DNA of 23,555 bases, taken from the IMG/VR virus record IMGVR_UViG_3300046804_004541, positions 1-23,555 of that record; one strand, 5' to 3'. How positions within the stretch are numbered: the first letter of the stretch is position 1; each line of letters starts with the position of its first letter. The notes under the pieces were generated by a model that searched no databases, had not been told where the DNA came from, and was given only the letters and a program-made list of their open reading frames with translations. Made by a program: the position numbers and the translations under genes. The stretch comes from a virus. Positions 4,942-23,198 of the stretch are shown in pieces.

Positions 4942-5012
4942 TGGGGGATCGTCTAAAGGCAGGACAACGGGTTTTGGTCCCGTGAATTGGGGTTCGAATC
5001 CCTGTCCCCCAG
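4942..5012 (+). tRNA. tRNA-Gln (anticodon TTG)
   Basis: Acceptor TGGGGGA/TCCCCCA, anticodon stem ACGGG/CCCGT with loop TTTTGGT (anticodon TTG at 4974-4976), and T-loop TTCGAAT. CCA is not encoded. A protein start codon lies 2 bases after the 3' end. Confidence 0.95.
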
Positions 5013-7960: not shown

Positions 7961-7969
7961 TGATATAAT
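7941..7969 (+). promoter_or_regulatory. Extended -10 promoter inside the tRNA cluster
   Basis: TGATATAAT (7961-7969) is a perfect TATAAT with a TGn extension. Exactly 17 bases upstream is TTCGAA (7941-7946), the T-loop of tRNA-Ser, which could serve as a weak -35. Transcription would begin near 7976, about 13 bases before tRNA-Asn. Confidence 0.6.
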
Positions 7970-7988
7970 GAATTCGGCACTGCTGCCA

Positions 7989-8062: not shown

Positions 8063-8136
8063 GCCGGGCTAACTCAGTTGGCCAGAGTGCCTCCCTTGTA
8101 AGGAGGAAGTCGTCGGTTCGAATCCGACGCCCGGCT
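8063..8136 (+). tRNA. tRNA-Thr (anticodon TGT)
   Basis: Acceptor GCCGGGC/GCCCGGC, anticodon stem CCTCC/GGAGG with loop CTTGTAA, T-loop TTCGAAT. A TGCTATAAT promoter for the deaminase gene begins two bases after its 3' end. Confidence 0.95.
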
Positions 8137-8146
8137 CTGCTATAAT
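8117..8146 (+). promoter_or_regulatory. Extended -10 promoter placed for a leaderless deaminase mRNA
   Basis: TGCTATAAT (8138-8146) ends six bases before ATG 8153, so the normal start point of transcription coincides with the A of the start codon. TTCGAA of the tRNA-Thr T-loop (8117-8122) is 18 bases upstream of TATAAT. Confidence 0.65.
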
Positions 8147-8152
8147 TTGATC

Positions 8153-8602
8153 ATGAAGGAGGATGACCTGATTGATCTTGCGCATCGAATAGCGCAGCGT
8201 TCTCCGGTCCGCCGATTTCAGACTGGCGCGGTCATTGAGAAGAACGGAGTCATTCTATCCACCGGTTGGAGCCATGCCTCTGATCGTAATATGGCATGCT
8301 ATCGATCCATGCATGCGGAACTTCACGCGATATCTAGATGTGATGTGAGGGATACCGTCGGATCTACAATAGCCATTGTGACCCTATCTAGGAAATCCGG
8401 CAACCGTACCGACGGTACCCCCTGTCTTTTCTGTCTACGGAACATTCAAAAATTCGGCATAGAGAAGATCATATGCACAACCACAGGTGGCGGATCCAAA
8501 GTCATTTACGCAGATCTTCTGGACATGTCAAAGATATCCGATAAAATGGACATGTCCGCGAAAAAGAAATATGTTGGCCACATCCTCTCATATGCGAGTT
8601 GA
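8153..8602 (+). CDS. Cytidine/deoxycytidylate deaminase-like zinc enzyme
   Basis: The 149-residue protein has the zinc deaminase signature: HAE (54-56) with catalytic Glu56, and PCLFC (90-94) with Cys91 and Cys94. This family deaminates cytidine, dCMP, guanine or tRNA bases; in phages dCMP deaminase feeding dTMP synthesis is common and would complement the ribonucleotide reductase, but the substrate is not fixed by these motifs. ATG 8153 is chosen over TTG 8147. It lies at the predicted transcription start with no 5' leader. An AAGGAGG (8156-8162) lies just inside the gene, too late for this ATG and not suitably spaced to any in-frame ATG. The end overlaps the helicase start by 11 bases. Confidence 0.82.
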   Translation: MKEDDLIDLAHRIAQRSPVRRFQTGAVIEKNGVILSTGWSHASDRNMACYRSMHAELHAISRCDVRDTVGSTIAIVTLSRKSGNRTDGTPCLFCLRNIQKFGIEKIICTTTGGGSKVIYADLLDMSKISDKMDMSAKKKYVGHILSYAS

Positions 8603-10493: not shown

Positions 10494-10513
10494 CGCTATG
10501 CTAGGATTGAATC

Positions 10514-11228: not shown

Positions 11229-11292
11229 CCAAGCGGTAAGGCAGCGGACTTTTAATCCGAAGATTTCGAAGGTTCGAATCCTTCCGGTCCCA
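11219..11292 (+). tRNA. tRNA-Lys (anticodon TTT)
   Basis: Acceptor GGGATCG/CGGTCCC with one T-G pair, anticodon loop CTTTTAA, T-stem GAAGG/CCTTC with loop TTCGAAT. Its first ten bases overlap the end of the HNH gene; U8, A9 and G10 of the tRNA form that gene's TAG stop codon. Confidence 0.95.
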
Positions 11293-11295
11293 TAT

Positions 11296-11317
11296 GGTTC
11301 GAATCCTTGTGGACCCA
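11296..11317 (+). repeat. Partial duplication of a tRNA 3' end (T-arm and acceptor)
   Basis: The 22 bases match the tRNA-Lys 3' end at 11271-11292 at 19 positions: 13 identical bases GGTTCGAATCCTT, two changes, then GG-A-CCCA in place of GG-T-CCCA. No complete tRNA precedes it. It is either the remnant of a second tRNA or a duplication left by recombination at the tRNA. Confidence 0.7.
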
Positions 11318-11655: not shown

Positions 11656-11852
11656 CAGAAGAAGAAAAAGTCAGGCTTCTTTTTCACTGCATCCTTGAGA
11701 TCGCCAAATCCTGCAAGATGCGTGGTTGTCCGCAGATCAATCCGGAGACCCCGTGCTGGTGCATGCAAGATGCTCAGACGATCTATGATGCGATGACGCT
11801 ACGCGGCCTTGACCTCGTATACCTTAGGTCAGATAATGACCCTCAGACTTAA
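11652..11852 (+). CDS. Small cysteine-rich protein, unknown function
   Basis: A 66-residue protein with five cysteines (13, 21, 26, 35, 37) clustered in the middle, including CKMRGCP and CWC, which could hold zinc or an iron-sulfur cluster. The start is coupled to the preceding gene (ATGA). The last 29 bases run into the end of the oppositely oriented RNA methyltransferase gene, with only a short GACCT/AGGTC inverted repeat near the junction. No family is recognised. Confidence 0.6.
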   Translation: MTEEEKVRLLFHCILEIAKSCKMRGCPQINPETPCWCMQDAQTIYDAMTLRGLDLVYLRSDNDPQT

Positions 11853-12405
11853 GCGTATAATCGTACATCGCAATAGCGGATGCGCTTCCGACATTGATTG
11901 ATCGCGTTGATCCAACCTGAGGGATGTAGACAATGTCGTCTGCCTGCGCGAGACTATTATTTGAGAGCCCGATCTGTTCTTGCCCAAGAACAATGATTGA
12001 CTTGTCCCACCACCTATAGCCAGTTATCGGCTGGGCCTCTTCCACATTATCAATCGCGACAATACGGTGTCTCTCGTAATTTGAGAAAACCTCGTCAATG
12101 TTTTCCGCGTGGTGGATGTGTTCGTATTTGTGCGTCCCACAGGTGCCCCTGCGGTCGAATCTCTTTCGACCAACGATCCAGACGCATTTACAAAGGAACG
12201 CGTTGGAGTTCCTGACAACCGTCGCGATATTGAAATCGTAGGCGAAGTTCTCACAGACCACAACAAGTTCAGACCTCTTCTTGTCGAGGTCTGCCACGAT
12301 TGCTTCGTGCTCCCAGTACTTGTAATGGTCGATGACGTTCCGCCTATCATGAGGCGAAATCTGTTCCAGTCCATCAGGGAAGTTCGGATTCAGTATCTTG
12401 GTCAC
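11824..12405 (-). CDS. SpoU/TrmH-type (SPOUT) RNA 2'-O-methyltransferase
   Basis: The 193-residue protein contains the three SPOUT motifs in order: motif 1 NFAYDFNIATVVRNS (53-67, with Asn59 and Arg65), motif 2 VLGQEQIGLS (139-148) and motif 3 IPQVGSTRSINVGSA (161-175), which form the trefoil-knot SAM site of SpoU/TrmH enzymes. These methylate ribose 2'-OH groups of tRNA or rRNA, as dimers. A phage with eight tRNAs nearby makes tRNA the natural target, but this is inference. GTG 12405 is chosen because GGAGG lies six bases upstream; a TTG at 12438 has no such site. Its start lies inside the preceding coiled-coil gene, so the two are coupled. In motif 3 the usual Ser-Leu-Asn is Ser-Ile-Asn. 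Confidence 0.85.
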   Translation of the reverse strand: MTKILNPNFPDGLEQISPHDRRNVIDHYKYWEHEAIVADLDKKRSELVVVCENFAYDFNIATVVRNSNAFLCKCVWIVGRKRFDRRGTCGTHKYEHIHHAENIDEVFSNYERHRIVAIDNVEEAQPITGYRWWDKSIIVLGQEQIGLSNNSLAQADDIVYIPQVGSTRSINVGSASAIAMYDYTLKSEGHYLT

Positions 12406-12511
12406 TCTTTTCCTCCAACTGCTTTTGCAGCGTATCAACGACCTCTTGCAATTGCAAAATCTGCAATTGAAGTTGTCCTAGGACGAGAGCGACCCTGTCG
12501 TTTAAACTCAT
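12374..12511 (-). CDS. 45-residue coiled-coil peptide, leaderless
   Basis: ATG 12511 opens a 45-codon frame ending at TGA 12374-12376. The product MSLNDRVALVLGQLQ... has a regular run of Leu/Ile/Val spaced with Gln and Glu (residues 8-34), a strong helical coiled coil, then an acidic tail. The start codon lies six bases after TATAAT, where transcription would begin. It overlaps the methyltransferase gene by 32 bases and carries that gene's ribosome-binding site. It may be a partner or a translational lead-in for the methyltransferase; no family is recognised. Confidence 0.6.
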   Translation of the reverse strand: MSLNDRVALVLGQLQLQILQLQEVVDTLQKQLEEKSDQDTESELP

Positions 12512-12517
12512 GGTTTA

Positions 12518-12526
12518 ATTATAGCA
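12518..12526 (-). promoter_or_regulatory. Extended -10 promoter placed for leaderless transcription
   Basis: On the minus strand TGCTATAAT (12526 to 12518) is followed by six bases and ATG 12511, the same arrangement as at 8138-8153. No convincing -35 is seen; the upstream position is taken by a terminator hairpin. Confidence 0.65.
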
Positions 12527-12529
12527 AAG

Positions 12530-12560
12530 AAAAAGGGCGACAGACCGAAGTCTGCCGCCC
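12530..12560 (-). terminator. Rho-independent terminator of the tail operon
   Basis: Read on the minus strand: GGGCGGCAGAC, loop TTCG, GTCTGTCGCCC, then TTTTT. Eleven pairs with one G-U and a C(UUCG)G tetraloop. On the plus strand the G-U pair becomes an A-C mismatch and there is no T-run, so it is directional. It ends the leftward tail transcript just before the next promoter. Confidence 0.92.
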
Positions 12561-12573
12561 CAGTTCTTTAGGA

Positions 12574-13606: not shown

Positions 13607-14316
13607 CTGTAGTCCTTTATGGTTCTATAGTCTTTTTTGTACCTATGACCGAATCGCCGTTTGGATTTTTGCCATTGTTTTGGATCAACTGTGCTTTTCT
13701 TTTTCACTTTGTGTTCCCAATCATCTCTTTTGAATGGAACAACCTGAATGATTGGTGTGCCCATTTCAATGCTTCCCCGGAAGCCCTGACGCAAAACAAA
13801 AGGAAAATTAATTGGCTGATTGCAATATCTATCGGTGTCGACCACACCGGAAAAACATCTAAATGGCAAATCTTCATGCCACATTGGTGCTGTAAAAAGA
13901 CACGAGTAACCGGGAGGTGTTTTAATCGCCCAAGGATTATGAAATTTCCACGCAACGGGCTCCCAAGCATCGGTGTTCAGCGGCAACTGATCAATCTGTT
14001 GAAGACTGTGTGTAGAGACTTGTTTGAATATATCGGATGGCCATCTTATTGATGCGCCACCTTCAGGGTTGTCGACCACCTCAATGTCTTGAGGTAGTGT
14101 TATTATGTATCCTGATGTCATCGCATCAAGCGCAGGCATACATTGCTTGATGGTGTGATTGTAATCACCAGTGTCGGTTACTTCTTTTGTCCCGCTCACA
14201 AAACCGCTCTGCATCTTGTACCAGTTGGGGAGAAGCGTTTTAGCCGGCACGGGCGGATCAAAAACCCCTTCAATGCTTTTTTCAGAAGGGATGAATTGAA
14301 TTAGTTTTCTTTTCAT
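13603..14316 (-). CDS. Conserved phage-type protein of unknown function, paralogue of the gene at 5014-5742
   Basis: The 237-residue product shares ordered blocks with the protein at 5014-5742: a start KxIQFIP, PPVPAKTLLPNWYK, PPGYSCLFTAPMW, LPFRCFSGVVDTDRY and GTPIIQVVPFKRDDW. Overall identity looks moderate and spread along the whole length, so these are diverged full-length duplicates. ATG 14316 is chosen since the homology starts there; it has AAGGA close by and lies seven bases after a TAGAAT -10 element. The sequence upstream in the same frame has no similarity to the paralogue. Function is unknown. Confidence 0.78.
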   Translation of the reverse strand: MKRKLIQFIPSEKSIEGVFDPPVPAKTLLPNWYKMQSGFVSGTKEVTDTGDYNHTIKQCMPALDAMTSGYIITLPQDIEVVDNPEGGASIRWPSDIFKQVSTHSLQQIDQLPLNTDAWEPVAWKFHNPWAIKTPPGYSCLFTAPMWHEDLPFRCFSGVVDTDRYCNQPINFPFVLRQGFRGSIEMGTPIIQVVPFKRDDWEHKVKKKSTVDPKQWQKSKRRFGHRYKKDYRTIKDYR

Positions 14317-14323
14317 TTTCCTT

Positions 14324-14332
14324 ATTCTAGCA
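14324..14332 (-). promoter_or_regulatory. Candidate extended -10 promoter in a 19-base gap
   Basis: On the minus strand TGCTAGAAT (14332 to 14324) precedes ATG 14316 by seven bases. It fits the TGnTAnAAT form of the other promoters here. A second TGCTAGA copy starts nine bases upstream, at the stop codon of the collar gene. The intervening AAGGAAA could act as a ribosome-binding site on longer transcripts. Confidence 0.4.

Positions 14333-20924: not shown

Positions 20925-23198
<2,274 letters not shown>

Follow-up and report, generated by a model that had tools for sequence, protein, structure and literature searches.

The cI mRNA of phage lambda is the classic leaderless message of a phage. 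Lambda is also noted in PMC3160421, according to which Actinobacteria belong to the groups with the most leaderless genes and average ~19% TA-led genes, and in Deinococcus, −10 motifs 6 to 7 bp before ORFs drive leaderless expression (PMC12340547). Two Thermus phages add related cases: phiYS40 produces leaderless middle and late mRNAs (PMC3594737), and P23-45 uses extended −10 promoters for its middle and late genes (PMC7403470). Here, we analyzed a 23,555-nucleotide stretch of DNA (the window) constituting positions 1 to 23,555 of IMG/VR virus record IMGVR_UViG_3300046804_004541, in which a deaminase gene is probably expressed as a leaderless mRNA from an extended −10 promoter, a cassette apparently reused across its phage family, whose host is probably actinobacterial. 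The TA-led leaderless mode is already known and the mechanism is not new; the locus is a well-supported further case, in an uncultured phage family.

The gene (8153 to 8602, plus strand) encodes a 149-aa protein of the dCMP/cytidine deaminase family, matching Pfam PF00383 (cytidine and deoxycytidylate deaminase zinc-binding family; E 3e-11) and phrog_174. Its start methionine (ATG 8153 to 8155) lines up with the start of its orthologs, and dN/dS of ~0.12 against the ortholog in related contig G002 indicates purifying selection; the gene is therefore probably expressed. The initial annotation had proposed a promoter six bases before this ATG and no ribosome-binding site upstream, and both proposals were confirmed at the level of sequence: the extended −10 element TGCTATAAT (8138 to 8146, plus strand), whose TATAAT (8141 to 8146) is preceded by TGC, is followed by the spacer TTGATC (8147 to 8152), a six-base spacing shared with other sites in the family, and no Shine–Dalgarno (SD)-like sequence occurs upstream of the ATG in GCTCTGCTATAATTTGATC. 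The locus thus has the TANNNT-like −10 about 10 bp before the start codon and the missing upstream SD of a TA-led gene, together with the TGN before TATAAT and the lack of a good −35 of an extended −10 promoter. The best −35-like hexamer, TCGAAT, scores 3/6 and lies in the T-loop of a tRNA-Thr(TGT) gene (8063 to 8137, plus strand) directly 5′ of the promoter; a −35 element was rejected both here and at a second TGCTATAAT site, at 12526, where the best hexamer scores 2/6. The acceptor stem of tRNA-Thr extends to 8135, the discriminator base is T8136, and CCA is not encoded, so that promoter and start are accommodated within 16 bases after the tRNA. The AAGGAGG that had been reported just inside the coding region is present at 8156 to 8162, in codons 2 to 4. 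It was rejected as a downstream SD because no in-frame ATG, GTG, or TTG is suitably spaced and the Lys-Glu residues are conserved in the orthologs; it is mostly Lys-Glu codon usage, kept as protein sequence.

The window matches part of a 57,176-base contig (IMGVR_UViG_3300043446_003411) with zero mismatches over 23,379 bases, and that contig therefore contributes no independent evidence. Related contigs were gathered through the deaminase, methyltransferase, and DnaE proteins, giving five close relatives (G001, G002, G004, G005, and G006) and a more distant one (G012; 160 kb, portal 51% identical). Of the 214 cultured phage records matched by the portal, 211 belong to phages of Mycobacterium, Mycolicibacterium, Gordonia, Rhodococcus, or Eggerthella, a kinship that suggests an actinobacterial host. 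The actinobacterial marker WhiB was not found, and a methyltransferase search of genome contigs returned no relative and hence no host genome. Among the annotated best matches, nucleotide similarity to cultured phages was confined to tRNA genes. The exact pattern TATAAT-N6/N7-ATG was missing from Rhodococcus phages E3 and Finch, Gordonia phages Skog and Stormageddon, and Mycobacterium phage Alice, five cultured actinophages whose portals are related. No Sigma70_r2 gene was detected in the six related contigs, in which controls were detected, and a phage sigma factor could be missed because these incomplete contigs are fragments.

Recurrence of the element exceeds expectation. The window contains three copies of TGNTATAAT, whereas shuffles yield 0.51, and a pattern scan returned two copies followed by ATG at N4–9 but none for the reversed pattern. 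The five close contigs contain 24 TGNTATRAT sites, a count that retains TGNTATAAT sites at G001 26231, 24013, and 15973 and their copies in relatives, which were rejected as promoters as they lie within conserved coding sequence. ATG stands at offset 6 in seven of the 24 and at every other offset in zero to three; the expectation for TGNTATRAT-N6-ATG is 0.23, and none of 200 shuffles reached seven (maximum, two). Among the seven, the methyltransferase promoter accounts for three as orthologous copies, and one ATG, in G004, is a tRNA gene edge. Across all 20 orderings of the hexamer letters, TATAAT ranked first, with five starts at N6/N7 compared with one at most for any other. The assertion that chance was an unlikely source of the arrangement is borne out by these comparisons, and the signal rises above dinucleotide shuffles for the extended form TGNTATRAT. 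In the distant relative G012, seven of 20 sites are followed by ATG or GTG at N6/N7, where 0.61 would be expected. Four distinct N6 mRNA sites exist in the close family, preceding the deaminase, the methyltransferase or a 45-aa ORF, a 374-aa gene in G002, and a 235-aa gene in G004. In the close family, C occupies −1 at each of the six mRNA-type N6 sites, as would be expected if transcription started at a +1 A behind a −1 pyrimidine; among 55 SD-type starts, the −1 base is a pyrimidine in only 19.

The geometry noted initially on the other strand is indeed there: TGCTATAAT at 12526 to 12518 (minus strand) is followed by TAAACC and ATG 12511 to 12509. This second extended −10 lies directly behind the strong intrinsic terminator of the gene upstream (12534 to 12561, minus strand), whose T-run abuts it. 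The order terminator, TGNTATRAT, N6, ATG is the same in the window, G002, and G004, the two relatives having the form TGATATGAT-N6-ATG, and the element is thus conserved at one orthologous promoter. The downstream ORF differs: in G002 and G004, the N6 ATG begins the methyltransferase itself, but in the window it begins a predicted leaderless 45-aa ORF (MSLNDRVALVL...; 12374 to 12511, minus strand) with no tblastn match in the related contigs. The window's SpoU-family RNA methyltransferase (11824 to 12405, minus strand; Pfam PF00588, E 8e-24) likely starts at GTG 12405, inside the 45-aa ORF, behind an SD (GGAGG, 12416 to 12412). The 45-aa ORF looks like an insertion that separates the methyltransferase from the conserved promoter.

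Deaminase orthologs are encoded in G002 (72%) and G004 (66%), where the gene follows tRNA-Asn with a short leader. Both carry an AAGG-type SD seven bases before the ATG and have neither TATAAT nor a −10 element; the tRNA-Thr gene is absent at this position. In the window, an additional tRNA-Thr and the −10 element stand where these relatives have the SD leader, and the leaderless layout of the deaminase is therefore lineage specific. Because the −10 element is missing in both known orthologs, support for the deaminase promoter comes from the family pattern rather than from direct conservation. The window lineage apparently switched the deaminase from SD-led to leaderless when tRNA-Thr and the −10 element arrived there; judged from these two relatives, the SD-led arrangement would be the older state. 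A seven-codon mini-ORF, absent in the window, has a TGA overlapping the deaminase ATG (ATGA) in G002 (L017, 5893 to 5916) and G004 (21391 to 21414), which suggests translational coupling in those relatives.

Copies of the element also occur elsewhere. On the minus strand, a 237-aa gene with its ATG at 14316 has TGCTAGAAT (14324 to 14332) seven bases upstream, and its G004 ortholog has TGGTATAAT-N6-ATG; the window site is ambiguous because its spacer, AAGGAAA, is also SD-like. The remaining sites precede tRNA genes. TGATATAAT (7961 to 7969, plus strand) lies between tRNA-Ser and tRNA-Asn, 19 bases before the latter, and G004 is alike, the distance being 19 to 20 bases in the two. TGCTAGGAT (10499 to 10507, plus strand) is exactly six bases before tRNA-Ile (10514), and TGCTATGAT is ~8 bases before its G004 counterpart. 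The element is also found nine bases before tRNA-Gln in G002 and G004 and seven before tRNA-Ser in G002. Some tRNA transcripts would accordingly start 0 to 3 bases from the mature 5′ end. The layout was not seen in tRNA-rich G012. Three further features near tRNA genes were observed. GGCACTGCTGCC, a small GGCA/TGCC hairpin, is conserved directly 5′ of tRNA-Asn in the window (7976 to 7987), G002 (L017, 5800 to 5811), and G004 (21305 to 21316). A second tRNA 3′ half (GGTTCGAATCCTTG...GGACCCA) follows tRNA-Lys at 11271 to 11316, resembling a duplication remnant. ATG 5014 of a 242-aa gene is one base past tRNA-Gln (4942 to 5012), which leaves an SD no room, and tRNA-Gln 3′ processing would leave an mRNA starting U-AUG.

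We propose that the extended −10 at 8138, without a useful −35, would be read by the host housekeeping RNA polymerase holoenzyme and that transcription would begin at A8153, the base after the spacer; the deaminase mRNA would therefore begin with its own AUG and be translated leaderless, ribosomes initiating on the 5′-terminal AUG. A start at this A, as first predicted, is favored by the spacing, the recurrence of the element, its conservation at the methyltransferase locus, the missing SD and good −35, and the −1 pyrimidine, all of them features of sequence. The family would deploy such a short cassette for several genes, often wedged in behind a tRNA or terminator, and at the deaminase it would have replaced the SD-led arrangement known from relatives.

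The most substantial rival, although an unlikely one, is that the deaminase is expressed only by read-through of the tRNA cluster, tRNA-Thr 3′ processing giving a 16-nt leader and TGCTATAAT being either accidental or the remnant of a tRNA promoter. Between tRNA-Thr and the deaminase, no clear terminator is seen, other TGNTATAAT sites occupy gaps between tRNA genes (7961; G002 5697), and the position of the G002 and G004 deaminases behind tRNA-Asn with a short leader fits such an origin, but the exact N6 and the C at −1 agree with the family's other mRNA sites, and the processed leader would be without an SD. In the predicted fold of this leader, moreover, the A of the AUG is base-paired within a hairpin absent from the leaderless form, a weak difference (z −0.85). 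Read-through may coexist with the promoter and add a transcript with the 16-nt SD-less leader.

If the promoter is real, transcription could start a few bases away, for example at G8149 or A8150, leaving a 3- to 4-nt leader: purines are present there, and start-site choice often spreads across two or three bases. By the spacing peak, however, the canonical +1 coincides with the A of the ATG, and the preceding base is a pyrimidine, making a shifted start very improbable, and functionally it would be almost identical to a leaderless one. Slighter still is the likelihood that an AT-rich intergenic stretch merely looks like a promoter; the window shows no surplus of TATAAT by itself (9 vs. 6.6), but the extended element with N6-ATG is ~30-fold over expectation in the family and is conserved at an orthologous promoter.

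If the deaminase is indeed expressed leaderless from its own promoter, sequence would suffice to predict start codons and promoters in the uncultured family, several genes would need no ribosome-binding site, and single-gene promoters would lie within or beside the tRNA array. It would also provide a comparative case of orthologous phage genes that are SD-led in some lineages and leaderless in another and would fit a probable actinobacterial host that translates leaderless messages well. A broader idea, which we offer tentatively and think rather doubtful, is that the lineage's minimal cassette (TGNTATRAT plus six to nine bases) starts both mRNAs and tRNAs at or near their first functional nucleotide, that genes moved beside tRNAs or terminators can acquire or abandon SD-led expression at a single stroke, and that processing at a tRNA 3′ end may sometimes release an mRNA with almost no leader, as at ATG 5014.

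The locus resembles the TA-led genes of Actinobacteria and Deinococcus-Thermus in its TANNNT-type −10 about 6 to 7 bases before the start, its lack of an SD, and the capacity of orthologs to change initiation mode (PMC3160421, PMC12340547), but differs from them in belonging to an uncultured phage and in having a near-consensus TATAAT with a TG extension. As in phiYS40 and P23-45, phage genes would be expressed from extended −10 promoters, as leaderless mRNAs, or both; the phage lineage and probably the host are different, kinship pointing to actinophages. As for lambda cI, the transcript is predicted to start at the AUG; unlike cI, a single repressor gene, the arrangement here extends to several unrelated genes.
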